Assembly (NCBI GenBank): GCA_030425145.1
Contig: JAUHVK010000013.1
Coordinates: 1 to 64,000, forward strand
Length of the DNA: 64,000 nucleotides
Reading direction: 5' to 3'
Source of the DNA: Alphaproteobacteria bacterium
Lineage (GTDB): Bacteria; Pseudomonadota; Alphaproteobacteria; Rhodobacterales; Rhodobacteraceae
Program-made: the position numbers and the translations under genes
Notes under the pieces: generated by a model
What the model was told of the DNA's origin: nothing
Seen by the model: only the letters and a program-made list of their open reading frames with translations
Database searches by the model: none
Shown: positions 1,028 to 60,719 of the stretch, piece by piece
Position numbering within the stretch: the stretch's first letter is position 1
How the letters are laid out: every line of letters begins with the position of its first letter

Positions 1028-3337
1028 CTACTTCCGTTTCATTGCAGCCAAGAGCGCATCACCCAAAGCCCCTTTGGACGCAGGTTTCGCTTGCTGGTTG
1101 CCTTTCACGGGTTTGGCCTTGCCGCTCTTTGCGCCGCTTTTTGGCGGCGTTGCCCGATCCGGAGCAGGTTTTCCACCTCCATCCTTGCGCATACTAAGCC
1201 CGATGCGCTTGCGCGCGATGTCCACTTCTGTGACGCGTACCCGCACCACATCGCCGGCTTTCACAACCTCATGTGGGTCTTTCACGAAGCGATCCGCGAG
1301 TTGGCTCACGTGCACCAACCCGTCCTGATGCACGCCAATATCCACAAAGGCACCGAAGGCCGCGACGTTGGTTACGGTGCCTTCGAGCATCATCCCGGGT
1401 TTGAGGGCTTTGATGTCCTCGACACCCTCGGCAAAGGTCGCTGTCCGGAATTCAGGTCTCGGGTCGCGTCCGGGCTTGGCCAGTTCATCGAGAATATCGC
1501 GAACGGTGGGCAAGCCGAACCGGTCGTCAACGAAGTCCTGTGGCTTTACCGAGCCGAGCGCATCTGGCCGTCCCATGATGTCGCGGATGTCTCGCCCGCA
1601 GGCCGCAACGATGCGCCGGGCAACCTCATAGGCTTCCGGGTGAACCGCCGAGGCGTCAAGCGGTTCGTCTCCGCCTTGAATCCGCAGAAAGCCTGCGCAT
1701 TGTTCAAATGCCCTTGGGCCAAGTCCCGTCACCTTGAGCAACGATTTCCGCGAAGCGAAGGCTCCGTGCGCATCGCGATGGGCAACGATGGCGGCAGCGA
1801 CCGAGGGGCTCAGCCCCGCGATGTGCGAGAGAAGTGGAGCCGAGGCCATGTTGAGATCGACACCCACGGCGTTCACCGCATCCTCAACCACGCCTTCCAA
1901 AGCATGTGACAGGCGGCGCTGGTCGACGTCGTGCTGGTACTGGCCGACACCGATGCTTTCGGGCGGAACTTTCACGAGTTCGGCCAGCGGATCCTGCAAG
2001 CGCCGCGCGATGCTGACGGCGCCGCGCAAGCTCACGTCGAGGTTGGGGAATTCGTGCGCTGCCAATTCAGACGCGGAATAGACGCTGGCCCCTGCTTCGG
2101 AGACAACAACCTTGGTCGGTTTGCGCCCCTCGATCAGCTTCATGGTGTCGGCCACCATGCGCTCGGTCTCGCGGCTCGCCGTGCCGTTTCCGATAGCGAT
2201 CAGCTCGATCCCGTGACGCTTTACCGCCGAGGCAATCCAGGCCTGCGCGCCGCGTAAGTCCATCTTTGGCTGGAAAGGATAGAGCGTTGCAGTTTCCACA
2301 AGCTTGCCGGTGGCATCGACCACCGCAGCCTTCACGCCGGTGCGGATCCCTGGATCGAGACCCAGCGTCGGCTTATTGCCTGCCGGAGCGGCCAGAAAAA
2401 GGTCGCGCAGGTTTCGGGCGAACACTGCGATGGCTTCTTCATGTGCGCGGCGGCGCAACTCGCTCAGGAGGTCGACATACATGGTGAGCGACAGCTTGAC
2501 ACGCCACGTCCACGCGGCCGCTTCGCGCAGCCAATGGTCGCCCGGGCCGTCGCCCGGAATGCCGATTGCGGTGCAAATGATCCCCACGGCACGATCAGAG
2601 CCAGTTTCAGGCTCGGGTGCGATATCGATCGTGACGATCTCTTCTTTTCCGGCCCGCAGGATCGCAAGCGCCCGATGCGACGGGATCGTCGCCCAGGACT
2701 CGCTGTGGTCGAAATAGTCCGAGAATTTCGACCCCGCCTCTTCCTTGCCGGAAACCACGCGCGCGGTGATCCGTGCCTCGGCCTGCATGAAATCGCGAAG
2801 CCGTCCTAGTAGCGTTGCGTTTTCCGACAGCTCCTCAGCAAGGATGTCACGTGCACCGTCGAGCGCGGCAGCGACGGTCTCGACGTTCTCGGACAAATAG
2901 GTTTCGGCCAGCGTAGCGGGTGTGGCCTGCCGGTCTGCCTCGATTGCCCGAAGAAGAGGCTCCAACCCGTTTTCTCGAGCGATCATCGCCTTGGTACGGC
3001 GCTTTGGCTTGTAGGGCAGGTAAATGTCTTCGAGCGCGGCCTTCGTATCGGCCTGCGCAATGGTGCGAGCCAGATCGTCTGTGAGTTTGCCCTGTCCGCG
3101 GATCGACTCGATGATTGCGGCGCGGCGCTTTTCCATCTCGCGCAGATAGCCCAGCCTATCGCCAAGCGTCCTGAGCTGCGTGTCGTCTAGACCCCCTGTG
3201 GCTTCCTTCCGGTACCGTGCAATAAAAGGCACCGTTGCCCCTTCGTCGAGAAGCGCAATCGCTGCGGCGACCTGCTTGTCGCTGGCAGAAATCTCGGTTG
3301 CGATGGTGCGGGAGATGCGGTCGGCGGTCTGGGTCAA
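1028..3337 (-). CDS. tex: Tex-family RNA-binding protein
   Basis: A 769-residue homologue of the Tex/YhgF protein, a nucleic-acid-binding factor linked to transcription and stress tolerance. It shows the family order: N-terminal helical Tex domain (about 1-200), a YqgF/RuvC-like fold starting around LGLDPGIRTG (about 330-450), helix-hairpin-helix repeats (about 490-570), and a C-terminal S1 domain (about 650-720, with GTVTNVAAFGAFVDIG). The tail after S1 is basic and Lys/Pro-rich. The start is TTG at 3337 with AGGAG about 8 bases upstream, a better choice than internal ATGs, which would cut into the N-terminal domain. The length matches the family. Confidence 0.95.
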   Translation of the reverse strand: MTQTADRISRTIATEISASDKQVAAAIALLDEGATVPFIARYRKEATGGLDDTQLRTLGDRLGYLREMEKRRAAIIESIRGQGKLTDDLARTIAQADTKAALEDIYLPYKPKRRTKAMIARENGLEPLLRAIEADRQATPATLAETYLSENVETVAAALDGARDILAEELSENATLLGRLRDFMQAEARITARVVSGKEEAGSKFSDYFDHSESWATIPSHRALAILRAGKEEIVTIDIAPEPETGSDRAVGIICTAIGIPGDGPGDHWLREAAAWTWRVKLSLTMYVDLLSELRRRAHEEAIAVFARNLRDLFLAAPAGNKPTLGLDPGIRTGVKAAVVDATGKLVETATLYPFQPKMDLRGAQAWIASAVKRHGIELIAIGNGTASRETERMVADTMKLIEGRKPTKVVVSEAGASVYSASELAAHEFPNLDVSLRGAVSIARRLQDPLAELVKVPPESIGVGQYQHDVDQRRLSHALEGVVEDAVNAVGVDLNMASAPLLSHIAGLSPSVAAAIVAHRDAHGAFASRKSLLKVTGLGPRAFEQCAGFLRIQGGDEPLDASAVHPEAYEVARRIVAACGRDIRDIMGRPDALGSVKPQDFVDDRFGLPTVRDILDELAKPGRDPRPEFRTATFAEGVEDIKALKPGMMLEGTVTNVAAFGAFVDIGVHQDGLVHVSQLADRFVKDPHEVVKAGDVVRVRVTEVDIARKRIGLSMRKDGGGKPAPDRATPPKSGAKSGKAKPVKGNQQAKPASKGALGDALLAAMKRK

Positions 3338-3679
3338 CGGGGGGCTCCTGTGCGTCGGACCGCCTTTCTATCCAAGCCATGTCGAGCCGCCAAGACCTCA
3401 GATCATGGCGTCCGACTTCCCCGAAAAATCGATGTCTTGTTTGGTTCGGACAAGCCCGGATTCGGCGGAAATCACGGGTTTGATGTGGATCATGGCAAAA
3501 ACAGGAGAGAATGCGTCACCCTGCATCGTGAGACAAGGGGGGGATCGCTTTGGGCGCAGGACGTGCTTGGGCGTTGATATTCTTCCAACTCAACCGATGA
3601 AACGCGCGAAAACCTGATCCTTGAAACGCATTCAGCAATATGCATATGAGGCATCAGAAGAATACCGGAGTTACAGCCA
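3338..3679. other. Intergenic region between tex and the RND operon
   Basis: These 342 bases separate two divergent genes and should hold both promoters. The open frames here have no ribosome sites or recognisable products. A small AT palindrome ATATGCATAT sits near 3638-3647, about 30 bases before the efflux adaptor start, and might be a regulator site, but nothing else supports it. Confidence 0.4.
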
Positions 3680-48573: not shown

Positions 48574-50214
48574 GTGGCCACAGGGCTGGAGATTTCCTTG
48601 TTCGGAACATGCGTGCTGCGGCGCGTCGATGGGCCTGTGAAGGAAATCACCGGAGCAAAACACCGCGCCTTCTTTGCCTTACTCGTGACCGCGCCGCTGA
48701 ACCGTCGATCCCGCAGCTTCCTGCAGGAAACGCTCTGGGGCTTCGCCGACTATGAAAGTGGTCATCAGAACCTGCGCCGCGCGCTTTCCGATCTGCGCAA
48801 GATCATCGGGGCCGATTTCGACAAGATCCTGAGCGTAACCAACAAGGAAATCGAGATCGACATGTCGCGAGTCAAGGTGATCGGTCACCCCTCCGACGGC
48901 CCTTTCCTCGACGACCTCAACGTGCGTGAACCGTCTTTCATAACATGGCGCGACAGCATCCGCGCCGATCCCAGTTCCGTCAAGGCGCTGTGCTTCATGT
49001 CGAACAAGCCCGGACCGATCCGGATCAGGCCGCGTATCTGCGCCTTGCCGCTGACCGTACCGCCCGGCGATTCAGAGCTTGCCATCGCGGGCGACTGGAT
49101 CGCCGAAGAAACCAGTCGCATGATGTCACGCTCCAGCCTGCTGTCAGTGATCTCGCACCTGTCGGGACGGGCCATGTCGCAGCGGTTCATCGACATCGTC
49201 AATGTGCGCGACACGCTGGACGTGGACTACCTGTTGACCGGCAGTATGCGGCGGCAGGGTGACTTGGTGATCGCAGATGTCGATCTGACCGATGTTCAGA
49301 GCGGGACACTGTTGTGGAACCGGCACCTATCATGCCGCTTGGCCCACTTTGGGCAGGAAGCCTCTGGCTGGCTAGTGAACGTGGTGCAATCCGTGGGGCG
49401 GGCAATCGCGGAAACCACACTGCACGCGGGACGGCAGACGCCCTTGCCCGATCTGCCCGACCATAAGTTGCTGATCGCGGGTGCCACGGCGATGCACCAC
49501 CCCAAGCTCGGAGATTTTCTGCGCGCCCGTCAGTTCCTGGACGAAGCTGCCACACGGGCCCCGGCCAATCCGCACGTGTTTGCCTGGCTTGGCAAATGGT
49601 ACGTTCTCAGCATCTTTAAAAACTACAGCACGGATCGGCAGGGCGACACGCAAAAGGCGCTGGACTGTACCGCACGTGCACTGGACCTTGATCCTCAATC
49701 CAGCTTCGGTCTGACCATCGACGGCTTTGTGAACGGCAATATCCTCAAGAACATGGACGTGGCCGAACGCCGCTACAGCGCCGCGCAGGAAATCAATCCG
49801 AGCGAAAGTCTGTCATGGTTGCTGCGTGGCTCACTGATGGCGTTCCGCGATGAAGGCCAATCCGCCATCCGCGCCACGACCATGGCCCGCGACCTGTCTC
49901 CAATCGACCCGTTTGGCTATTATTTCGACAGCCTCGCCAGCTCTGCGCATCTTGCGGGGGGCGACTATGAAAAGGCGCTGGAACTGGCGGATCGGTCGCT
50001 TGAATCCAACGACCGTCATATTTCGACACTCAGAACACGGATCGCCGCCCTGCACGCGCTGGATCGGGGCGCGGAGGCGCGCGAGACCGCGCAAGATCTG
50101 CTGCGGCGGTTCCCTTATTTCAGTCTGGAAGATTATCGAAAAACGCACCCCTCTGCGGACAGCAAGACCGGCAAGCTCGTGATCCGGGCGCTGGCCGAAG
50201 CGGGGCTTTCCTAA
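48574..50214 (+). CDS. SARP/CadC-like winged-helix regulator with TPR repeats
   Basis: A 546-residue cytoplasmic regulator without membrane segments. Residues about 1-95 form a SARP-type winged helix (LFGTCVLRRVDGPV, LQETLWGF and NLRRALSDLRKIIG are typical). Residues about 165-275 match the TolB-like region common in CadC-type TPR regulators (VDYLLTGSMRRQGDLVIADV and SGTLLWNRHL). From about 290 there are TPR-like helices (ALDCTARALDLDPQSS, YEKALELADRSLE). It starts with GTG at 48574 after AAGGGG. It is the first gene of the accessory block, 28 bases before the PAP2 gene, and is the probable activator. Confidence 0.85.
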   Translation: MATGLEISLFGTCVLRRVDGPVKEITGAKHRAFFALLVTAPLNRRSRSFLQETLWGFADYESGHQNLRRALSDLRKIIGADFDKILSVTNKEIEIDMSRVKVIGHPSDGPFLDDLNVREPSFITWRDSIRADPSSVKALCFMSNKPGPIRIRPRICALPLTVPPGDSELAIAGDWIAEETSRMMSRSSLLSVISHLSGRAMSQRFIDIVNVRDTLDVDYLLTGSMRRQGDLVIADVDLTDVQSGTLLWNRHLSCRLAHFGQEASGWLVNVVQSVGRAIAETTLHAGRQTPLPDLPDHKLLIAGATAMHHPKLGDFLRARQFLDEAATRAPANPHVFAWLGKWYVLSIFKNYSTDRQGDTQKALDCTARALDLDPQSSFGLTIDGFVNGNILKNMDVAERRYSAAQEINPSESLSWLLRGSLMAFRDEGQSAIRATTMARDLSPIDPFGYYFDSLASSAHLAGGDYEKALELADRSLESNDRHISTLRTRIAALHALDRGAEARETAQDLLRRFPYFSLEDYRKTHPSADSKTGKLVIRALAEAGLS

Positions 50215-50242
50215 AGCAATTTAAACACAGGGGATATGTCAC

Positions 50243-51361
50243 ATGGCTCAGTACGGTGGATTTGGCGGGTTCGGCGGATTTGGTGGGTTCGGCGGATTTG
50301 GAGGCTTCGGTGGATTTGGCGGTTTCGGCGGCGGTACGAACTTCACTGGGTTGGGTGGCTTTCTGGGCAGCGAAGACCCCGGCGGATATGATCCGGCGAC
50401 AACGCTGGGCCTTCAGACCACAGCCGAGGGATTGCGCCATCTGACCGAAGGCGGCGCAACGCCGACAGACAAGGAACTGGGGTTCTCGGATCCGAACAAC
50501 CTTGCCGGACTGGCGACATGGGTGCGCGGATCGCTCTACGTCAGCGAATATCTTGCAGGCATCGGATCGGATGCAGTGGTGGGGACAGGCGGCGCGCCCG
50601 ACCGGGTGGCGCTGTCTTTCGACGGCACCACGTTCTTGACGCTGAACCGCCCGGCGAACGACCTGTTACGCTCGCAGTGCCGCCTTGTATCGGACTACGC
50701 CACGCTACGCGCCGAGCGCAGCGCCGAGATCACATCGCAGTTAGGCTTCCCAACCGCCTATTTCGCGATGATGCTCGGACTGCACAGCGCACAGAACAAA
50801 AAGACGTTCGAGCTGATCACCGCGACCCAGGTCGCTGCCGCGCACACGGCGATGATCGTCAAGAACCACCTCGCCATTCGCCGTCCCGACCAGCTCGACG
50901 CCCGTCTGATGCCGATGATCCCGACACCGGGTCACGGCAGCTTTCCTTCGGCACACGCGACCGAAGCCTATGCGGTGCTCACCGTACTCGAAGCTTTGGT
51001 GGCGGCATGGGACAGCCTAGCTGACGGCGAACAGCGCATCAAAGCCTTGCGCGGTTTGGCCGAACGCATTGCCGTCAACCGCACAGTGGCGGGTGTGCAC
51101 TACCCCATCGACAGTTGGGCGGGTGCAGCGCTTGGCCGGATCGTCGGTCAGGCTGTGCTGAACCGCGCTGGTGCAGGCGGACCTATCGCGGAAGTGGCCT
51201 ACAGCGCAGGCGATCACGACTTCTTTGACGAAGACCAGCGCGATCCGGCTACTGCCGCGACCAAGGGACTGACCGCCACAGGCGCCACCGCCACACTGTC
51301 CGCCAAGCCTGCGTTCTCGTGGCTCTGGTCCGGGGCCGTGGCCGAAGCGCAGAAGGCCTGA
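50243..51361 (+). CDS. GGF-repeat PAP2/vanadium-haloperoxidase-fold protein
   Basis: A 372-residue protein in two parts. Residues 5-28 are eight GGF triplets followed by GGG, a low-complexity, probably disordered tail. The rest is a PAP2/vanadium-haloperoxidase-type acid phosphatase domain with all three motifs: K207 NHLAIR R214 P, P235 S A H238, and R280 TVAGV H286 YPI D290. It could be a phosphatase or a haloperoxidase; both share these residues. There is no signal peptide and no membrane helix like those in lipid PAP2 enzymes. The stop is 3 bases from the S8 peptidase start. Confidence 0.85.
   Translation: MAQYGGFGGFGGFGGFGGFGGFGGFGGFGGGTNFTGLGGFLGSEDPGGYDPATTLGLQTTAEGLRHLTEGGATPTDKELGFSDPNNLAGLATWVRGSLYVSEYLAGIGSDAVVGTGGAPDRVALSFDGTTFLTLNRPANDLLRSQCRLVSDYATLRAERSAEITSQLGFPTAYFAMMLGLHSAQNKKTFELITATQVAAAHTAMIVKNHLAIRRPDQLDARLMPMIPTPGHGSFPSAHATEAYAVLTVLEALVAAWDSLADGEQRIKALRGLAERIAVNRTVAGVHYPIDSWAGAALGRIVGQAVLNRAGAGGPIAEVAYSAGDHDFFDEDQRDPATAATKGLTATGATATLSAKPAFSWLWSGAVAEAQKA
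50255..50326 (+). repeat. Eight GGF-coding triplet repeats
   Basis: Seventy-two bases encode eight consecutive Gly-Gly-Phe units. Codons vary between units (GGT, GGC, GGA and GGG; TTT and TTC), so the array is held at protein level and is not a fresh DNA slippage product. Confidence 0.95.
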
Positions 51362-51364
51362 GCC

Positions 51365-53431
51365 ATGTTTCCGCATCGCCATGACCAAGAACGGATCGAC
51401 AAGTACACCGGTCCCTATGAACGCTGGATCTTTTCAGAAGAGTTGGGACGGCCTTTTGCCTTCCCCGCCATCCGCAAGGGTCCGTCCAGCCACATCACCG
51501 CGCTGATGGAAGGCGAAGGAATGCTTGCGGGAACGGAGGATGTCGAAATCCGCATCCCGCCGCTCTGGAAGGACAATCCAGAGGTCACGCCCTTCGCCAT
51601 GTGGAACAAGTCGGTCAGCCCGGATTCCGATCCGGCGCAGGACGACGTGGAACTGGCCCGCTGCCTGCACGCACTGAATGGAACACGTTACCGGCTCAAT
51701 ATGCCGATTGATCCTGTGACATGGCCGGAGAGTTACGACCCGAACGCCACGCCGGAGGGATGGCAAAAACCCAAAGTCAAACCGCGCGTGATCATCGGGG
51801 TGATCGACGACGGCATCCCGTTCCTGCACCGCGCGTTCCGCGATGCGGCAGGCGATACGCGGATCAACCTGTGTTGGCTTCAGGCTGCGCGGGCCGAAAC
51901 GTCCGCCGCTGTTCCGTTTGGATGCGAGATCACGGGCACACGGATCGACCAGTTGCGCGCCCAATACGGTGATCAGGAAATCCGCGCCTACAAGGCGGCC
52001 CATGCCATCGACGCTGATCTGCCGGAAGTGGACACTGTGCTCATGCACCACGCAACGCACGGCGCGCATATTGCCGGAATTGCTGCCGGGAATGATCCCT
52101 ATGTGGGTGCCATTGATCTGCCTGACGACGCGGCGGTGATTGCCGTTCAACTGCCGAACACCATCGCTTGGGACACGTCAGGCTTTGGCAAGGAAATGAT
52201 GATGCTCAGCGCGATTGAGTACATCTTCAACCGCGCTCGCATGATCGCCCAGGCCTATGACTGCCAAGAGCTGCCTCTGGTGATCAATTTCAGCTACGGC
52301 TGGAGCGCCAATCGCCATGACGGTCAGTCGAGTTTCGAACGCGCTGTGGAGGCGCTTATCACAGACAGGCGCGAGGTTCAGCCCCGCACCGAACTGGTCA
52401 TGCCTACCGGCAACAACTTTGCCAATGACATGCACGCAAGGTTTGGGTCCAGCGATTTGACCGACGGCGTGGCCCGTTTTGGTTGGCAGCTCAAACCAGA
52501 CGATCGCACGTCGAGTTATCTGGAAATCTGGCTTCCTGCGGGGCGCGATCCGCTAGGCTGGACCGTTACCGTGACGCCACCTTCCGGAAGTCCGCCGGAG
52601 TTGGAAACCAGCATAGAGATCGCGCCCGATCCGCTGCTCAAAGATGGTGACCCACGTCGCTTTGTCGAGATCGAAAGCGGCGGCAAAAACATCGGCCAGC
52701 TTTCTGCGGACAAGCACTTGGGCAACCGCTGGCGTGTGATGCTCGCGATGATCCCGACTGCGAGCAATCTGGGGGCCGGTCGGCGCACGCCCGTTGGGCA
52801 GTGGGCAGTTACCATCGACACAGGCTCCGATCCGCTTGGCGCAGGCGAACACATCGATGTCTGGGTGCAACGGGATGATGACCCGACACAGCTTGGCACG
52901 GGTGGGCAGCAAAGTTACCTGATTGATCTGTCACACCCGAAACCGCCACGCGTGTTCGAGCCGCCCGCCCTGACCCCGGTGCGCGGGTTTGGCTGCCTCA
53001 ACGGCATAGGCACCGCGCCTTCGGTGTTTCGCATTGCGGGCTATATGCAATCGACGCTCAAGCCCTCCGGTTATAGCGGCAGCGCGTCGATCGCGGTCGA
53101 TCCACAAGACGGCGCGCGTGTGGACGCGAATTTGCCCGCAGCGACAGCGACAGCCGATCAAGGGTGGTTCCGACCCGGTTTGCCGTCCATCGGCGTGTTG
53201 TCCGGTTCAGGCGCGCGGATCATCGGAACAAGTGCTGCTGCAGCCACCGCAACGCGGTTGATCGCGCTGAATTTCTTTGCAGGCAATCCGGCGCGGCATG
53301 GGTTTACCGAACTCTATCAGGGATCCGCCCCCGACGCCCGAACACTCGCCAGAACAGGGCCTTACCGTGTGCCGCCCGTCTGCGGCACCACCCTGAAACA
53401 CGCAGAGGAGCAGCCGTTCATCGGGGTGTGA
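51365..53431 (+). CDS. Leaderless S8 subtilase
   Basis: A 688-residue serine peptidase with a complete S8 triad: D148 in GVIDDGIP, H232 in THGAHIAGIAAG, S623 in IIGTSAAA. The oxyanion Asn is in PTGNN (about 350). An inserted beta-rich region (about 370-520) separates the Asn from the Ser part, as in large subtilases. The first 140 residues could be a propeptide-like or substrate-binding extension. There is no signal peptide. The gene starts 3 bases after the PAP2 stop and is probably coupled to it. It may process other products of the block or act as an effector. Confidence 0.88.
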   Translation: MFPHRHDQERIDKYTGPYERWIFSEELGRPFAFPAIRKGPSSHITALMEGEGMLAGTEDVEIRIPPLWKDNPEVTPFAMWNKSVSPDSDPAQDDVELARCLHALNGTRYRLNMPIDPVTWPESYDPNATPEGWQKPKVKPRVIIGVIDDGIPFLHRAFRDAAGDTRINLCWLQAARAETSAAVPFGCEITGTRIDQLRAQYGDQEIRAYKAAHAIDADLPEVDTVLMHHATHGAHIAGIAAGNDPYVGAIDLPDDAAVIAVQLPNTIAWDTSGFGKEMMMLSAIEYIFNRARMIAQAYDCQELPLVINFSYGWSANRHDGQSSFERAVEALITDRREVQPRTELVMPTGNNFANDMHARFGSSDLTDGVARFGWQLKPDDRTSSYLEIWLPAGRDPLGWTVTVTPPSGSPPELETSIEIAPDPLLKDGDPRRFVEIESGGKNIGQLSADKHLGNRWRVMLAMIPTASNLGAGRRTPVGQWAVTIDTGSDPLGAGEHIDVWVQRDDDPTQLGTGGQQSYLIDLSHPKPPRVFEPPALTPVRGFGCLNGIGTAPSVFRIAGYMQSTLKPSGYSGSASIAVDPQDGARVDANLPAATATADQGWFRPGLPSIGVLSGSGARIIGTSAAAATATRLIALNFFAGNPARHGFTELYQGSAPDARTLARTGPYRVPPVCGTTLKHAEEQPFIGV

Positions 53432-53542
53432 AAAACGCGTTCACAGTGTCCTCACTCACCCTACGTCAACCAACTCTTTACCCTTTCGATCGTGTCGAGC
53501 GGCTGCTGCCCCTGCCGCGCACGATCCCTCGGAGTAAAGACG

Positions 53543-55336
53543 ATGACGTTCCAAATGCAATCACATGGTGGAGCGCAGAAGAAACGCGCGCCCACCGAAA
53601 AACCCCAAATTCTCGAAGCACTAATCCCCACCGGCGGCGATATTGCCGTGGACGAAGCCGCCGATTTCGGCTTCCTGCTCCCGCCGGGTGGCGACGCCAG
53701 CCAATACCTGCCCGATGTGCCGGACACAGAACTCGACGAACTCGGCAATCTGATGGTGCCCGATACCAACGACATCGACGCCACTCCCGATGGCGGGATG
53801 GCCCCCGTGATGACCTACTGGGGGCAGTTCCTCGACCACGAATTGACCGCCCGCACCGACCGCGAAAGCTCTCTGACCGGGATCGACGACCCGACGCCCA
53901 AGGCCTCGGGACAAGAGATTGAACGCCAACTGAAGAACGCGCGCACGCCGCGCTTTGATCTGGACTCGGTTTATGGCGGCCTTCCTGTCGGCACGTTCGC
54001 CGCCCCATCCATCCAACACGCCGCATCCGTCCTTCGCACCGGGATGCGCCATCCAGTTCACACTGCCAAGATGCGCGTCGGCACAGCGGTCGACCCCGGC
54101 CCACTGCCCGACGACACGCTTGACCCGCACCGCGACCTGCCGCGCTTTCATCAGGTTGAACAAAAGGTCCGCGACGCCGCGCTCGACATCGCCCGCGCGC
54201 AGATGGACGAAGATGCCTTTGCCAAGTTCGAGGCCGGATTGCCGAAACGCGCGGTGATCGGCGACATGCGCAATGACGAGAACATCATCATCGCCCAATT
54301 CCACTTGAGCTTTCTGCGTTTCCACAACAAGGTCGTGGACTTCCTGACCGAAAACGACACCGGGTGGATTGCCGATTTCGACGCCGCCAAATCCCTGACC
54401 AAACTGCATTACCAATGGCTGGTCGTGCATGGCTATCTCAAGGAGATCTGCGACCCGACGGTCGTGACTCGTATCATCGACACCCGCAACGCGAATTACG
54501 ACGCCTTCCGCGCCGACTATGCCGCACGCAATCCGGGGCGTGTGGTGGGCAACGTCATCCCGCTCGAATTCTCGACCGCCGTCTATCGCTTCGGCCACTC
54601 GATGGTGCGCAACATCTATGACTACAACCGTACGTTTGGACGCCCGAACGGTACGGCTCCGTTCGATCAGGTCTTCGCCTTCACCGGCGGCGGAGGCATT
54701 GGCGCGCGATTTGGGTTGAACCTGAACAGCATCCCAAAGAACTGGGTGATTGACTGGGCACGGTTCGTGACCCCGGATGCCAGCTTTACAGATGGTGGCC
54801 CGCAGCGCGTGGCGCGTGCCGTGGACACGGTGATCGCGCCTCCTCTGGGCGACATGGTCAACGAAGGCGGTGAATTTGACGCCGGCACACCCGACGGAGC
54901 CGCGCTGCGTGCGCTCTTCCGCAACCTCGCCCGGCGCAACCTGCGGCGCGGCAAGAGCCTGCGCCTTCCGACGGGACAGGCGTTGCATGCCCATCTCCAG
55001 AACATCGGCGCAATCACAAGCAGCCCGCAGAATGACGTGCGGGCGTGGCTCGACAACAAGCCCGAGCTGGCATCCTTCCTTGATGGCCATGCGTTCAACA
55101 GCGCGACGCCGCTCTGGTTCTACTGCCTTGCCGAAGCCGAAGGCACACCAGGCCCCGGCCTTGGTGAGATGGGCAGTTGGATCGTTGCCGCGACCTTCAT
55201 CGGCGCACTGATGGACGACGCGGACTCCGCCCTGTCACGCGAGTTCTCGCCAGATCAAAGCCCTTTGCGCACCCCCGACGGCGATCCGATCGACACAATC
55301 GAACGCTGGATGCGCTTTGCGGCGGTCCTCGACTGA
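53543..55336 (+). CDS. Animal-type haem peroxidase (leaderless)
   Basis: A 597-residue member of the peroxidase-cyclooxygenase superfamily. Distal His is H99 in YWGQFLDHEL; the distal Arg and haem-linking Glu region is R243 NDE N; proximal His is H352 in YRFGHSMVRN. All catalytic marks are therefore present. Such enzymes oxidise halides, thiocyanate or phenols with H2O2. No signal peptide is visible, which is unusual for the family. The start at 53543 has GGAG 8 bases upstream; the longer frame to 53492 has no ribosome site. It lies 111 bases after the S8 gene and may be in the same transcript. Confidence 0.9.
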   Translation: MTFQMQSHGGAQKKRAPTEKPQILEALIPTGGDIAVDEAADFGFLLPPGGDASQYLPDVPDTELDELGNLMVPDTNDIDATPDGGMAPVMTYWGQFLDHELTARTDRESSLTGIDDPTPKASGQEIERQLKNARTPRFDLDSVYGGLPVGTFAAPSIQHAASVLRTGMRHPVHTAKMRVGTAVDPGPLPDDTLDPHRDLPRFHQVEQKVRDAALDIARAQMDEDAFAKFEAGLPKRAVIGDMRNDENIIIAQFHLSFLRFHNKVVDFLTENDTGWIADFDAAKSLTKLHYQWLVVHGYLKEICDPTVVTRIIDTRNANYDAFRADYAARNPGRVVGNVIPLEFSTAVYRFGHSMVRNIYDYNRTFGRPNGTAPFDQVFAFTGGGGIGARFGLNLNSIPKNWVIDWARFVTPDASFTDGGPQRVARAVDTVIAPPLGDMVNEGGEFDAGTPDGAALRALFRNLARRNLRRGKSLRLPTGQALHAHLQNIGAITSSPQNDVRAWLDNKPELASFLDGHAFNSATPLWFYCLAEAEGTPGPGLGEMGSWIVAATFIGALMDDADSALSREFSPDQSPLRTPDGDPIDTIERWMRFAAVLD

Positions 55337-55342
55337 CCGCCT

Positions 55343-55374
55343 TGGCCGGTCCTTTTCCTCCCGGGGACCGGCCA
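55343..55374 (+). terminator. Hairpin between the peroxidase and hydrolase genes
   Basis: TGGCCGGTCC (55343-55352) and GGACCGGCCA (55365-55374) pair around a 12-base loop, followed by CCCTTTTCC. It may reduce read-through into the next gene, whose ribosome site lies 20 bases further on. Confidence 0.65.
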
Positions 55375-55403
55375 CCCTTTTCCTTCTGCGACAGGAGAAC
55401 ACC

Positions 55404-57932
55404 ATGCTTGCCTTTGACGACTTTCAGGTTGAGACCTTTCTGCGCACAGGGGAGCACGAGACAGCCCTGCGCGCGGAATTCGGAGACGCGCTTTACGAAG
55501 AACTGACGCAACTTGCGCAGGAAGCTGGGCGCAAAGCACCCCTGTTCGAAGCCCGGCGGCGCAAGGTGTTCATCTTGCCCGGCATCATGGGTTCGCGGCT
55601 GAGTGCGATCCGAAATGGGCAAGCCGATCTGGTCTGGATACACCCCTCCGATCTGGCGTCCGGCGGAATTGCCAAGCTCAAGTGGGGCGCGACCGTTGCC
55701 GCCACTGGCACGGTTCTGGCCCCCTATCTGCGGATGAAGCTGCGCCTGACGCTAGCCGGGTTCGATGCCGAGTTCATGCCCTTCGACTGGCGGCAATCCC
55801 CTGCCGTGACCGGCAAGATGTTGATCGACCGCATCCGTCATCGCGGGCTGAGCGACGTGTCCCTGGTCTGTCACTCGATGGGCGGGTTGGTCGCGCGCCA
55901 GATGGCGGCAGAGGATGGAGACCGCTCCGTGATCTCTCGGGTCGTGACCATAGGCACGCCGAACCACGGGTCATACGCGCCAGTGCAGGTGTTCGACCTG
56001 AGTCACGACATGCTGGGTCCACTTGGCTTTGCCGATCAGCTTCATGATCGTGAAACGATCGTTGAAAAATACCTGCGCGGATTTCCCGGACTGATCGAGA
56101 TGATGCCGGACCCGAACAAGCGACCGAATGAAACTTTCTTCACGCGTGGCTTCTGGCCGGAAGGCGCGGTGCCTCCGACCGCCAATGTCCTGCGCGCAGC
56201 GAAACTGGGGCGGGGCGATTTGCCGGAACCGGATGCGCGGTTTCACCAGATCATCGGCACCGGCGAAGAAACCGTTGTCGCTGCAAACAAGACGGCGGCG
56301 GGTTTTGTTTACCACTTGTCCTTTGACGGCGACGGAACCGTGCCGCGCGATCTGGCGGAAATGGGTAATGTCGCCCGCTACTACTGCGAAGGCACACATG
56401 GCTGGCTGTGCAACCGCTCTGACGTGATTGCCGCGAGCATCGACCTGATCGGAACAGGGGCCACCCACGCCCTGAATGACAGGCCCCGCATCAACGCAGT
56501 CGAACGCGCCATGCCTGATGTATTCAGCGCCGATCTGCGGCTTGAAACCATCTCGGCGTTGCCGCCCCTGCGCGAAACCGATTTTGCCGGTACGTTCCTT
56601 TCGGGTCAGGCCGATATCGCTGAACCAATTGGCGCAGTCATCTCGGATGCTCCAGCAACCGACCAAAACGCCTATCCCCGCTCCATCGTCGATGCGGCGA
56701 GCCTGCGGTGGAAAGCGTCGGATGCCGAGCGCAAGACGGTCATCCAGTCACAGCACGAGGCACGTCCGCTCAGCGCGGAAACACCCGAACGGATCGACGC
56801 CTACACGCGCCGCCTCTTGGCCATCGTAGACGCCGCAAGCGCAAATGGTCAGGGCCGCAAACTTAGCCGCGAGTTGGAAACAGCGCTCGAGAGTTTGGAA
56901 AAGGCCACTCCTGGTGTGCTTCCGCCGACTGGCCCCACAGCGGCGATTTTGGAACGGGTGATCGGCGAGGCTGAAGAATTCCTCTCAGTCATGTTCATCA
57001 AACGCGCCCTTGTCGCAGCCCGCGCCGTTGGGCGGATCGTGGCCACTGCGACCGGAGAGGGCTTTGGGACCGGGTTCCTGATCGCGCCGGGCGTCTTGAT
57101 GACGAACCATCATGTTCTGCAAAACCATTTCGCCGCCAGTCGGGCCTCGGTGCAGTTCCGCTTTGAGCTTGAGATCGACAGTCGGCAGACGACCGGTCAT
57201 TGCTTTACGCTGGAGCCGCAGCGCCTTTTCTACGCGAATGAACGGCTGGACATGGCCATCATAGCCGTGGCGCCGACAAGCGAGGATGGCGTCAGTCTTG
57301 AGGACTTCGGGTATTTGCCGCTGATCGGAGTCGAGGGCAAAATCCGCAAAGGCCAACCAGTCAACATCGTGCAGCACCCACTCGCGGGTCGAAAACAGGT
57401 GGTGTTCCGCGAAAGCCTTCTGACCGCCCTTCCCCCCGATAACGACCACGTCGCGCATTACACAGGCGACACACAGCCCGGTTCCTCTGGCGCGCCTGTT
57501 TTCAGCGATCTGTGGGAAGTTGTGGCGCTGCATCACTCCGGTGTGCCGGACCAGACGGAAACCGGACATTACGTGACGGTGGATGGCGGCATCTGGAACC
57601 CGTCTGTCGATCCGGACATGAAAACGGTCAAATGGATCGCGAACGAAGGTATCCGCGTGTCGCGGCTAGTTGCGCATCTCAAGACGCTTGCAGACCGCCT
57701 GTCGCGCGACGGAACGCCCGGAGCCGAACTCGTGGAAGACGTTCTCGCCGTTGGCCGGGACGCGGTTCACACAGGTGGGTTTCAGACACCACCTGCAAGC
57801 ACGTGGGAACGCGCGCCTGCGCCCCCCGGATCAGGGACATTCGCTGACCATAAAGCAGGCATCACGATCCCTGTCCGGTTCGACATTTCCTTCGCCTTTC
57901 CAGACCAGCCCCCTTTCCCCAACTCGTCCTAG
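55404..57932 (+). CDS. LCAT-like hydrolase fused to a trypsin-like protease
   Basis: An 842-residue two-enzyme fusion. The N-terminal alpha/beta hydrolase (about 50-345) resembles lecithin:cholesterol acyltransferase-type lipases: VFILPGIMGSRLS, nucleophile S158 in VCHSMGGLVA, Asp in DGDGTVPR (308 or 310) and H332 in CEGTHGW. A helical linker follows (about 360-540). The C-terminal domain (about 545-760) is a V8/trypsin-type protease: H570 in TNHHV, D616 in RLDMAII, S695 in GSSGAPVF. No signal peptide. ACAGGAGAAC precedes the ATG at 55404. Its own transcript or read-through past the upstream hairpin are both possible. Confidence 0.88.
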   Translation: MLAFDDFQVETFLRTGEHETALRAEFGDALYEELTQLAQEAGRKAPLFEARRRKVFILPGIMGSRLSAIRNGQADLVWIHPSDLASGGIAKLKWGATVAATGTVLAPYLRMKLRLTLAGFDAEFMPFDWRQSPAVTGKMLIDRIRHRGLSDVSLVCHSMGGLVARQMAAEDGDRSVISRVVTIGTPNHGSYAPVQVFDLSHDMLGPLGFADQLHDRETIVEKYLRGFPGLIEMMPDPNKRPNETFFTRGFWPEGAVPPTANVLRAAKLGRGDLPEPDARFHQIIGTGEETVVAANKTAAGFVYHLSFDGDGTVPRDLAEMGNVARYYCEGTHGWLCNRSDVIAASIDLIGTGATHALNDRPRINAVERAMPDVFSADLRLETISALPPLRETDFAGTFLSGQADIAEPIGAVISDAPATDQNAYPRSIVDAASLRWKASDAERKTVIQSQHEARPLSAETPERIDAYTRRLLAIVDAASANGQGRKLSRELETALESLEKATPGVLPPTGPTAAILERVIGEAEEFLSVMFIKRALVAARAVGRIVATATGEGFGTGFLIAPGVLMTNHHVLQNHFAASRASVQFRFELEIDSRQTTGHCFTLEPQRLFYANERLDMAIIAVAPTSEDGVSLEDFGYLPLIGVEGKIRKGQPVNIVQHPLAGRKQVVFRESLLTALPPDNDHVAHYTGDTQPGSSGAPVFSDLWEVVALHHSGVPDQTETGHYVTVDGGIWNPSVDPDMKTVKWIANEGIRVSRLVAHLKTLADRLSRDGTPGAELVEDVLAVGRDAVHTGGFQTPPASTWERAPAPPGSGTFADHKAGITIPVRFDISFAFPDQPPFPNSS

Positions 57933-58033: not shown

Positions 58034-59620
58034 ATGGCTAAATCAAAGAAAGAGGGCGTCGGCCACGTGCAGGAGAGCCCGAGCGATCCGATTTTCGTTC
58101 CGAATTTCGATGACATCGAGCACCTCAAGAAAAAGATGCTGCAGGAGGCGCTGACCCCTGATCGTCTGGACTACGACGACATCCGCGAGACGATATGCGG
58201 CGCCACTGACGACAGTCAGCCGGTGGAGCAATATGATGGCAGTCTTGGTGTCACCCGCTCGTTCGTCGATGCGCATCAGGCACCGGTCGGGGTGCTGCGC
58301 TGGCACACCAATCTCGCCAGCATCTACACCAACCCCGGCAATGTTGCCGGCCAGCGCTGGTGCACCGGAACACTGATCTCGGACAACCTGTTCCTGACGG
58401 CAGGCCATTGCTTTGACCAGACCGGTGGCGGCTGGAGCCGTCCGCGCATCAACGGCACGACCAACATCATCTCCTCCCAGGAAATCGCGACGCGGATGAA
58501 TGTGGAGTTCAACTTCCAGGTCGACAGCAACGGTGTTCAGCAAAGCCCGGTCTCCTTTGCCGTGGAAGAGCTGATCGAATACCGTCTGGATGGTCTCGAC
58601 TTTGCCATCGTGCGTCTGTCCGGCAATCCGGGCCAGCAGTTCGGCGTGACCCGTCTGGCCGAGGATGACGGCAATCAGGGCGACATGATCTGCATCATCG
58701 GCCACCCGGCCGGGCAACCAAAGCGGATCGAGGCCGGCCCCATCACCAGCTTCGAGGACTTCCGCGTCCGGTATAATGATATCGACACGCTGGGCGGCAA
58801 TTCCGGCTCGGGGATCCTGCGGGCTAGCGATGGCTGTATTGTCGGCATCCACACCAATGGCGGCTGTAACGCGGCGATGACCGGTTCGAACTTTGGCCTG
58901 CGCATCACCCGTGTTCGGGCGGCGTCGCCGACTATTCAGAGCATCGGCACGCATACCAATACGATCCGGGATATCCTGACCAGCCCGTCGGCAGATCAGA
59001 TCACAAGCATTTTGGCTGATCGTCTGACAACGGTGCGCGACGACCGGATCCATTCACTGCCTCAACTTGATCGGCCTCCGACAAATATCGTCCTCGACAG
59101 GCGTCCGACCAACATCATCGACGATCGCGGTCCGACGAACATCCTGCGGGATCTGCGGCCGACCTCCATCATTGATGACCGGAGGCCGACAAATGTCCTT
59201 TTGGACCGGGGCCCAACCAGCATCCTGGATGATCGAGGCCCAACCAATGTGCTGATGGACCAGGGCACCAACATCATCGCGGATCGCGGCACTAGCGCCA
59301 TTCTTGATCAGGGCACCGACCCCATCGGTGACCGCAAGGTCAGCGGACTCGACAAGCAGTTCTCGGACCGCATTCCGGATCGGCTTGGCGGTCTGATCAG
59401 TGGACGGTTCCGCGAAGGTGGCGCGATGCCCTTTGTCATGGCGACGCCGCATCACGCGGCGGGCGCGATGGCCGGGTTGCAGCAGACCTATACCGGCGAT
59501 GCCGAAGCGCAGCAGATCGAAGAGCTGGTGGTCTACTACGAAGAGCTCTCGGCGATGGCCGAGGAGATCCTGGCCGAGATGGCCGAGATCGAAGCGCTGT
59601 TCGACGATTCCGAAAGCTGA
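58034..59620 (+). CDS. Trypsin-like protease with Asp/Thr nine-residue repeat array
   Basis: A 528-residue protein. Residues about 75-305 are a trypsin-fold protease with H125 in TAGHC, D189 in LDFAIV and S257 in GGNSGSG, plus Cys pairs suggesting disulfides. From about 319 to 439 a repeat array follows: seven regular 9-residue units of the form xDRxPTNIx (345-407), then four degenerate 8-residue units (408-439), with faint related units before. The C-terminal 90 residues contain MPFVMATPHH and an acidic helix (EELSAMAEEILAEMAEIEAL). There is no classical signal peptide. The next gene is an ATP-grasp ligase, so the array is a candidate substrate. Confidence 0.88.
   Translation: MAKSKKEGVGHVQESPSDPIFVPNFDDIEHLKKKMLQEALTPDRLDYDDIRETICGATDDSQPVEQYDGSLGVTRSFVDAHQAPVGVLRWHTNLASIYTNPGNVAGQRWCTGTLISDNLFLTAGHCFDQTGGGWSRPRINGTTNIISSQEIATRMNVEFNFQVDSNGVQQSPVSFAVEELIEYRLDGLDFAIVRLSGNPGQQFGVTRLAEDDGNQGDMICIIGHPAGQPKRIEAGPITSFEDFRVRYNDIDTLGGNSGSGILRASDGCIVGIHTNGGCNAAMTGSNFGLRITRVRAASPTIQSIGTHTNTIRDILTSPSADQITSILADRLTTVRDDRIHSLPQLDRPPTNIVLDRRPTNIIDDRGPTNILRDLRPTSIIDDRRPTNVLLDRGPTSILDDRGPTNVLMDQGTNIIADRGTSAILDQGTDPIGDRKVSGLDKQFSDRIPDRLGGLISGRFREGGAMPFVMATPHHAAGAMAGLQQTYTGDAEAQQIEELVVYYEELSAMAEEILAEMAEIEALFDDSES
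59066..59254 (+). repeat. Seven 27-base repeat units encoding xDRxPTNIx
   Basis: The protein units are LDRPPTNIV, LDRRPTNII, DDRGPTNIL, RDLRPTSII, DDRRPTNVL, LDRGPTSIL and DDRGPTNVL. Degenerate units extend it to about 58988-59350. Thr is invariant in all seven and Asp at position 2 is invariant. Synonymous codons differ strongly between units, so selection acts on the peptide. Confidence 0.95.
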
Positions 59621-59628
59621 AGACACAC

Positions 59629-59653
59629 GGAAAGGGCCAACCCGGCCCTTTCC
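59629..59653 (+). terminator. Hairpin between the repeat protease and ATP-grasp genes
   Basis: GGAAAGGGCC (59629-59638), loop AACCC, GGCCCTTTCC (59644-59653). There is no T-run. It sits between the stop and the next ribosome site and could attenuate expression of the ligase relative to its neighbour, as expected for a substrate–enzyme pair. Confidence 0.65.
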
Positions 59654-59678
59654 GACTTCCCCCGACAGGAGATTTCCC

Positions 59679-60719
59679 ATGATCCTCATTCTTTCCAGTG
59701 ATGACGACGTTCACGCACGCCAGGTCATGCACCACATCGCGGAACGCGGGCACAGCGCCACGCTTCTCAACCTCGCCGATTTCCCCAAGGACGCGAATCT
59801 GATCTTCGAGGCAGGCCAGTCCAAGTCCCGCCGTGAGATGCACTATAGGGGCAAGACGATTGACCTTTCCAAAGTGTCCTCCGTCTGGTGGCGCCGCCCG
59901 CAGCCCTACGGCATACACCCGGACGTGACTGATCCCGTTCTCGACAATTTCGCCATCCGCGAAGTCGACGAGGCCATCCAAGGTCTCTGGCTCTCACTTG
60001 ATGCAGAATGGATCAACGTGCCCCGCCGCGATGAAGACGCCAGCCGCAAGGCATGGCAGCTTGATGTGGCGCGATCGGTTGGCCTGACCGTGCCCCGCAC
60101 ACTTATCACCACGGATCCCGAGGCGGCCCGCACGTTTATCGACCGCGAAGGGGTAGACCGTACGATCTACAAGCCATTTCAAGGCAGCGAGGATGCCTGG
60201 CGCGAAACGCGGCTTCTCAAGCTCGAAGAATTGGAAAAGATCGACGCCGTGAAATACGCGCCGGTGATTTTTCAGGAGTACATCGAAGCCACCTGCGATC
60301 TGCGTGTGACCGTTGTCGGCGAACAGATCTTTGCCGCCGCCATAGACAGTCAAAAGGCCGCCTATCGCGTCGATTTCCGCATGGACATGAACGTGGCGAT
60401 AACGCCCACGACGCTGGCCCCGGAAACCGAGATGGGCATACGCAAACTGATGAAAGCCTTGGACCTCACCTATGGAGCCATCGACTTCCGTCGACGCCCA
60501 AATGGCGAAGAAGTGTTCCTCGAAATCAATCCGGCTGGCCAATGGCTGTTTGTCGAAGACCAGACCGGCCAACCGATTGGCAAAGCAGTGGCGGATTGCC
60601 TGATCGACCGGGTCAGAACGGATAGCATTCCAAGGCTAACCCATCCTTTGATGAACACTATTCCGATGCCGCCCGCGACGTCTGCGGTCAGAACAAACCA
60701 GACCGTCGCCGCGAGATGA
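59679..60719 (+). CDS. ATP-grasp ligase, graspetide maturase-like (MvdC/MvdD type)
   Basis: A 346-residue ATP-grasp protein resembling ribosomal-peptide maturases of the microviridin/graspetide group. The N-terminal domain has the family-like VWWRRPQPYG (about 69-78). ATP-grasp features are YKPF (Lys165), FQEYIEATCDLRVTVVG (about 198-214) and the metal-binding LEINPAGQWLF (Glu282, Asn284). Such enzymes join Ser/Thr or Lys side chains to Asp/Glu in precursor peptides. ACAGGAG precedes the ATG at 59679; the longer frame to 59400 lies in the protease gene and is a shadow. Alternative roles are a RimK-like amino-acid ligase. Its 3' end overlaps the convergent permease gene. Confidence 0.85.
   Translation: MILILSSDDDVHARQVMHHIAERGHSATLLNLADFPKDANLIFEAGQSKSRREMHYRGKTIDLSKVSSVWWRRPQPYGIHPDVTDPVLDNFAIREVDEAIQGLWLSLDAEWINVPRRDEDASRKAWQLDVARSVGLTVPRTLITTDPEAARTFIDREGVDRTIYKPFQGSEDAWRETRLLKLEELEKIDAVKYAPVIFQEYIEATCDLRVTVVGEQIFAAAIDSQKAAYRVDFRMDMNVAITPTTLAPETEMGIRKLMKALDLTYGAIDFRRRPNGEEVFLEINPAGQWLFVEDQTGQPIGKAVADCLIDRVRTDSIPRLTHPLMNTIPMPPATSAVRTNQTVAAR

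Follow-up and report, generated by a model that had tools for sequence, protein, structure and literature searches.

Repeat-tailed proteases as candidate substrates of adjacent graspetide-type ATP-grasp ligases

Introduction

Can a graspetide ligase act on the tail of a whole enzyme rather than on a small peptide? The question is raised by a locus on contig JAUHVK010000013.1 of a bacterium of the Rhodobacteraceae (GenBank assembly GCA_030425145.1), whose positions 1 to 64,000 on the forward strand are referred to here as the window. A gene for a trypsin-like protease with a repetitive tail lies directly upstream of a gene for an ATP-grasp ligase, as an earlier note made from the sequence had stated; both reading frames are present on the same strand. 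That note proposed a graspetide system in which the core, with Thr and Asp as potential ring partners, is fused to a protease.

The present analysis makes it likely that such proteases are substrates of the adjacent ligase, which would recognize a C-terminal “follower” and convert their tails into chains of small lactone or lactam rings. Only slightly less firmly, these “stapled proteases”, of at least four unrelated families, with up to about ten rings and a natural follower, are regarded as the missing substrates of a ligase branch so far associated with peptidases only. The class is scattered but rare.

The ATP-grasp ligase

The ligase, whose ATG lies at 59679 within a mechanically called open reading frame (ORF) that begins at 59400, contains an MvdD pre-ATP-grasp domain (E-value 2.6e-15). 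Its matches to NCBI models are TIGR04187 (2e-74), MvdC (3e-57), MvdD (4e-57), and rimK_fam (2e-15), all under the curated cut-offs. An MvdD-type domain with similarity to TIGR04184/4185/4187, the combination taken here to define a graspetide synthetase, is thus present; subfamily membership is not claimed because all three TIGR models score below their cut-offs (251 versus 350 bits for TIGR04187). A profile of 13 relatives retrieves the structures 5ig8, 5ig9, 7m4s (AMdnB), 7mgv (CdnC), and 9bou at 6e-62 (5ig8) to 9e-54 and 7drm at 2e-33, with RimK-type chains at 4e-11 or worse. The structure table lists 5ig8, 5ig9, and 7drm as ATP-grasp proteins, which we take to be MdnB, MdnC, and PsnB. The ligase is therefore closer to solved graspetide synthetases than to RimK. 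The profile comparison that the earlier note had proposed, MvdC/MvdD against RimK, bears out the marks of graspetide maturases that it had seen in this protein, as graspetide models and structures far outscore RimK.

Residues D269, E282, and N284 are invariant among the 13 relatives; such residues bind metal in ATP-grasp enzymes. Among the ligases of the tree, the nearest one with a named source is from Marivita cryptomonadis, at 89% over 317 columns.

The array and C-terminal motif of the protease

The window protease matches the Pfam families Trypsin_2 (E = 2e-14, amino acids (aa) 110–272) and Trypsin (3e-9, aa 103–281). Its closest solved structure by sequence is the glutamyl endopeptidase 1p3c (1.7e-9), and the catalytic motifs TAGHC, LDFAI, and GNSGSG are all found. 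In a simple hydropathy scan the protease peaks at 0.51, whereas a solute-binding protein encoded in the window reaches 2.28, which suggests that the protease has no signal peptide. Relatives with complete N-termini mostly score low as well; values reach 1.6–2.0 in loci L015, L020, and L022 (L and G numbers denote loci and genomes), where a signal peptide is therefore possible.

Beyond the catalytic domain lie ten units with Thr at aa 350, 359, 368, 377, 386, 395, 404, 412, 420, and 428. Thr and Asp are invariant in 10/10 units and have four residues between them, an i,i+5 relation (T-x4-D). The earlier description of a regular nine-residue array with one invariant Thr and Asp per unit is confirmed, the period being nine and later eight residues; “spaced four apart” should read as four residues between Thr and Asp. 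When the composition of the 120-residue tail was shuffled 20,000 times, no chain exceeded 4 T....D units, against the ten observed. At the DNA level, Tandem Repeats Finder reports only 2.6 copies, and the mean identity between units is 58%, which argues against a fresh DNA duplication. Thr is encoded by ACA, ACC, ACG, and ACT, and Asp by GAC and GAT; with only these two residues invariant, the varied codons and the mean identity indicate that the pattern is held at the protein level.

The array thus shows the repeated donor Thr/Ser/Lys before an acceptor Asp/Glu, with a small loop, that is expected of a graspetide precursor, although the donor-before-acceptor order is not independent proof in a periodic array. 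The protein is not a short peptide with an N-terminal leader (PFFARFL or Phhx(1,2)h); it has 528 residues, a protease domain, and a C-terminal motif.

This motif, PFVMATPHH, which does not figure in the earlier note, proved to be the key to the analysis. Motifs of the type PF[VI]LxTPHH are common to the related loci and occupy a C-terminal position on four protease families. In an alignment of 13 proteins of the four families, near-invariance is confined to three Gly columns and, within the motif, to P, F, T, and H. When a motif profile built without S1 rows, from 12 sequences (S8, M43, and astacin loci only), was run against the 706 window ORFs (stop to stop, at least 50 residues), the window protease scored 2.7e-7 and the runner-up 0.94. 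The motif would be the likely docking site for the ligase.

Of 19 genomes or records, 16 contain a single match (E ≤ 0.001) to a 14-row follower profile, in which the L050 row begins after PFVL, and this match lies at the ligase locus. Because 14 of the 16 had contributed rows, the informative point is the absence of a second copy and not the match itself. The weaker cases are G307 (0.004, at the locus), G305 (0.7, elsewhere), and G504 (no match). Among 119 genomes of the order of G298, three have the ligase; the follower (E ≤ 0.001) occurs in two of these, both contributors of profile rows, and in no other genome. The third, G504, has the divergent end PFILTTNWPY.

Related loci and their protease families

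Together with the window, 24 loci carry an array and a C-terminal motif in the gene directly upstream of the ligase, in 24/24 cases on the same strand and with a gap of −4 to 115 nucleotides (nt). According to record titles or sampled groups, they belong to six phyla: Pseudomonadota, Acidobacteriota, Verrucomicrobiota, Planctomycetota, Bacteroidota, and Actinomycetota. The survey of homologous loci proposed earlier thus supports the link between ligase and array, which co-occur in 18 of the 20 loci of the genome-contig scan and in all four further close ligases (L002, L048, L050, L055), these and L038 coming from sampled genomes and plasmids. Some aligned ligase starts are GTG or TTG (L014:2778, L015:5031, L017:2080, L018:5152, L023:7654), and the true starts may shift some codons.

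The N-terminal parts comprise seven S1, four S8, six M43, and five astacin domains, one without an assigned domain (L038), and one fragment (L017), so that a protease domain of these families occurs in 22 of the 24 loci, one of them (L007) inferred from a contig that begins inside the array, before the catalytic domain. The S1 assignment rests on Pfam for the window and on alignment to its protease at 85–91% for L005, L006, and L008–L010. Pfam assigns S8 to L002, L018, L022, and L048, astacin to L012, L015, L019, L020, and L023, and M43 to L011, L013, L014, L016, and L055; L050, which shares 56% identity with L055, is placed in M43 on that basis. All six M43 proteins and all five astacins have zinc-binding motifs, and all four S8 proteins have GTSxAxP; L018 escaped the loose pattern used for the His box of S8. 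The sole close plasmid locus is L055, from a Burkholderia stagnalis plasmid record. Among the 21 plasmid records with a ligase match, the module was assessed in L055, and annotation alone was used around Herpetosiphon H4.

The two genome-scan loci outside the 18 are L021, with a rearranged, truncated ligase, and L024, with a distant ATP-grasp protein (23% identity) and no module match by the motif pattern, which also misses L020 and L038. In L021 (Marivita XM-24bin2), remnants of a subtilase, peroxidase, hydrolase, protease, and ligase are joined or truncated; the cassette seems to have been lost, or the assembly to be faulty. The short frame of L017 (1686–2072), directly upstream of the ligase on a fragment contig, contains array and motif but no visible protease; it may represent a precursor that stands alone or a gene that is broken. 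L038 has a 375-residue frame (2447–3577, minus strand) with 47 DPK tripeptides, an N-terminal domain without a Pfam match, and the exact end PFILTTNWPY, perhaps a module without a protease.

ORF inspection or the motif pattern found no module at the more distant ligase loci L003, L004, L039–L046, L049, L051, and L052–L054, the last three being virus contigs with more distant ligases (30–35% identity) scored by pattern. Several distant ligases adjoin short upstream ORFs with a PF motif near the N-terminus: KPFLFEI in L004, KPFGIEF in L040, KPFGVEF in L043, KPFGLEY in L045, KPFFARYLE in L042 and L046, and MKPFIFQA in L051. On the virus-labelled contig L053 (4661–5966), a graspetide-like ligase directly follows an ORF with three TKT...E(T/E)D units, which by sequence resembles a repeated graspetide precursor.

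In counts that include the centre genomes, the ligase (E ≤ 1e-20) occurs in 4 of 295 genomes of the window's family, two of which (G000, G283) have a module-type upstream gene. In the class sample it occurs in 1 of 318, its own genome. At 1e-60 it is found in 6 of 327 genomes (two of the module kind, G297 and G504) and in 1 of 326; at 1e-80, in 2 of 194 (one of the module kind) and 3 of 216 (two of the module kind). On the best ligase tree, where good support is limited to 4 of 18 inner branches, the protease family changes at least five times, so that exchange of the protease domain is likely.

Spacing of donors and acceptors

In 18 arrays, each from a different locus, Asp is preceded at distance 5 by Thr, Ser, or Lys in a mean fraction of 0.60 (0.59 circular), compared with 0.37 at distance 4, 0.31 at 3, 0.30 at 6, and at most 0.19 elsewhere up to 10. 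Circular shifts that keep the period of each array average 0.23 (standard deviation (sd) 0.05), and 0 of 20,000 reach the observed value (p = 5e-5), even when the best of distances 3–8 is taken. As many arrays are interrelated, a second run was restricted to 11 arrays, each of a different type, and gave 0.63 versus 0.23 (sd 0.06; 0/20,000; p = 5e-5).

Array length and sequence vary among the loci, and the T/K-to-D spacing is mostly kept. The type of array does not track the protease family: TLKFRDD units occur on M43 proteins and an astacin (L012), and T-x4-D arrays on S1, S8, and M43 (L055) proteins. KFRDD-type units include a KxxxD sequence. That unrelated protease families bear the same kind of tail suggests that the proteases themselves are the ligase targets.

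Comparison with known graspetide systems

The closest likeness is corallotide (graspetide group 15), in whose precursor of about 22 kDa five KxxxD sites are cyclized by a TIGR04187 enzyme (PMC13097080). Like the window system, it combines a TIGR04187-type ligase with a long precursor made up of an N-terminal domain and tandem repeats, and its proven K-x3-D lactam has a counterpart in the KxxxD of the KFRDD units. Unlike the window protein, corallotide has an N-terminal part that is predicted to be helical (residues 1–86) and is no protease, and its cluster, in contrast to the window cassette, contains an oxygenase and a beta-lactamase homologue; a C-terminal PF..TPHH motif is unmentioned in the available text (PMC13097080). 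Microviridin and plesiocin share with the window system the ligase family, Thr/Ser/Lys–Asp/Glu rings with small loops and, for plesiocin, repeated units. They are leader–core peptides, whereas the proposed core of the window protein has a protease before it and a C-terminal motif after it. The microviridin leader motif is PFFARFL (PMC8939145). Graspetide loops are “typically 3 or 4 aa” (PMC12291112), in agreement with the four residues between the T-x4-D partners.

A recognition sequence C-terminal to the core can direct an ATP-grasp ligase: in leader-to-follower fuscimiditide, an engineered C-terminal leader works for ThfB, with RPFG as a short recognition element (PMC13003496). A natural follower, as proposed here, is therefore chemically reasonable.

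For ligase branches 7 and 8, Makarova 2022 found no precursors and instead peptidases of unrelated families, with a YscW homologue often present in branch 7 (PMC8939145); in Carter 2026, group 32 is noted for a variety of protease neighbours, and more than half of group 9 has a serine proteinase (PMC13097080). The present loci resemble branch 7 and group 32 in that several unrelated peptidase families adjoin the ligase, a likeness at the level of gene neighbourhood. Small YscW-like proteins are encoded on the minus strand near the astacin genes of L012 (5107–5466; 7e-7) and L023 (5912–6265; 0.0019, below the cut-off). These two cases, among 18 compared loci of which several are short, hint at a possible membership of branch 7. 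In these papers, the proteases are treated as peptide suppliers or maturation/resistance enzymes, unlike the substrates proposed here; they may instead be the missing substrates of the published peptidase-only branch. The parts of PMC8939145 and PMC13097080 to which the comparison was confined do not propose the protease as a substrate. No report of a protease-fused graspetide precursor appeared in the literature searched, where “graspetide” and “astacin” were paired in none.

Proposed mechanism and alternative explanations

The protease and ligase genes would form a self-contained cassette. The ligase would bind the PF[VI]LxTPHH-like stretch, the follower replacing the N-terminal leader of known graspetides, and would phosphorylate the Asp of each array unit. 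The activated Asp would then be attacked by the Thr five residues earlier, or by Lys in some relatives, so that each unit would acquire one macrolactone (or lactam) with a four-residue loop, up to 10 in the window protein. The result would be a stapled tail on a presumably active protease, which could belong to any of several families.

Several observations weigh against this proposal. The ligases L051 (330 bits) and L049 (275) are about as close as L038 (327) and yet lack the module, and branch support is weak where the ligase tree implies changes of protease family. The motif is weakened in L020 (PFVLAGPSR, assigned by eye), L015 (PFAVTTVHQ), and L038 (PFILTTNWPY), and resembles PFFARFL just loosely. 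The array limits were set by hand and many arrays share a relationship; L038 and L017 do not fit the i,i+5 distance (0.14 and 0.00 of Asp), distance 3 being better, L013 and L016 have mostly Glu at the donor position, and L013, L016, and L023 fit distance 4 better.

Of the other explanations, those that would assign the ligase or the array to a different family fare worst. The earlier note's own alternative, a RimK-like enzyme that adds amino acids to the acidic C-terminal end of the protease, draws on that acidity and on a RimK Pfam domain in the ligase (1e-7, above its cut-off). It is barely credible given the MvdD domain and the profile comparisons above, in which RimK is not the closest relative, and it was rejected on those grounds. 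A folded or metal-binding repeat of the RTX type, with only an incidental link to the ligase, is scarcely more probable. Nine-residue units that contain Asp recall RTX repeats in length, but the RTX nonapeptide pattern is GGxGxDxUx and GGxGxD is absent from the ten window units, so that RTX membership was rejected from the unit sequences; moreover, the arrays differ among loci and yet mostly keep the T/K-to-D spacing and adjoin the ligase. An unlikely but more serious rival is that the protease matures, or confers resistance to, a separate graspetide precursor, its own array being a linker. Published opinion lies on this side: peptidases of branches 7 and 8 are proposed to supply peptides from other proteins (Makarova 2022, PMC8939145), and proteases such as those of group 32 to act in maturation or resistance (Carter 2026, PMC13097080). 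Clustering of ORFs of at least 70 residues, however, found no short ORF common to most of the 18 loci, and neither of the small genes that did turn up, a lipocalin-like one at M43 loci and a YscW-like one at two astacin loci, shows such an array. The short gaps to the ligase, the arrays and motif on four unrelated families, and the constrained spacing all favour the protease as substrate.

What the rings would do is the least certain part of the proposal. A stiff stalk that resists the protease's own cutting and links the catalytic domain to the helical C-terminal part is the leading candidate, held tentatively. Behind it, at rather poor odds, stands a tethered inhibitor that would hold the protease in a latent state inside the cell for as long as its tail stays uncut. 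Microviridins and plesiocin do inhibit serine proteases (PMC13097080). Such latency would also suit the window protease, apparently without a signal peptide in a V8/trypsin-like family that is often secreted. Since array type does not track protease family, a matched active-site inhibitor is less plausible, and a general function of the tail is favoured, for example that of a stalk that withstands self-cutting. Six aligned M43 members carry an N-terminal Cys-Gly, like the cysteine switch of mirolysin (PMC6949598), and may therefore have another latency device. The release of ring-bearing peptides is somewhat more doubtful still.

Features of the window and neighbouring genes

Table 1. Features of the cassette and its surroundings in the window
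Feature	Positions	Strand	Basis or content
Genes upstream of the protease, same strand	48574-57932	+	TPR protein, PAP2 enzyme, subtilase, haem peroxidase, LCAT-like hydrolase
V8/trypsin-like protease with array and C-terminal motif, 528 aa	58034..59620	+	Pfam, structure profile, motifs
Trypsin-like catalytic domain, aa 103-281; His125, Asp189, Ser257 assigned by motif	58340..58876	+	
Ten-unit T-x4-D array, aa 350-433, proposed ring-forming region	59081..59332	+	
PFVMATPHH motif, aa 466-474, proposed ligase-recognition “follower”	59429..59455	+	
Acidic, helix-predicted C-terminal end, 3′ of the motif	59480..59617	+	AlphaFold
Intergenic gap, 58 nt; too small for a separate precursor	59621..59678	+	
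MvdD-like ATP-grasp ligase, 346 aa, proposed ring-forming enzyme	59679..60719	+	Pfam, NCBI models, structure profile

The AlphaFold model of the window protease has a mean predicted local distance difference test (pLDDT) score of 28, with a block from about residue 490 at 53–70 and the remainder below 50; that of an M43 relative has a mean of 37, its last helices reaching 57–84. Both models are of low confidence and of use only for the predicted C-terminal helices.

Among the upstream genes, the TPR protein has a weak match to a HilA-type regulator model, the PAP2 enzyme has a (GGF)n N-terminus, the haem peroxidase is of animal type, and the LCAT-like hydrolase is fused to a trypsin domain. 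The hydropathy scan shows no clear signal peptide in the four enzymes. The peroxidase and LCAT–trypsin genes are kept 5′ of the array gene in L005 and L006. The C-terminal end of the subtilase (51365–53431), EEQPFIGV, bears a faint resemblance, probably by chance, to the beginning of the motif as seen in L002 (EQPFVLST).

At L011, L013, L014, L016, and L055, a small related protein (HxHEEDxxG...SRGR-like) is encoded directly 5′ of the M43 gene, which amounts to 5/5 of the M43 loci that cover the place. With weak Lipocalin_4 matches, below threshold, in 2 of 3 tested, this lipocalin-like protein is a possible inhibitor or chaperone.

Implications

If the proposal is true, graspetide chemistry would reach beyond small peptides and include the tails of entire enzymes, and nature would already employ a C-terminal recognition sequence of the kind that was engineered in 2026. 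Ligases without known substrates would gain a substrate candidate, and the combination of array, motif, and ligase would be a potential genetic tag for stapling proteins.

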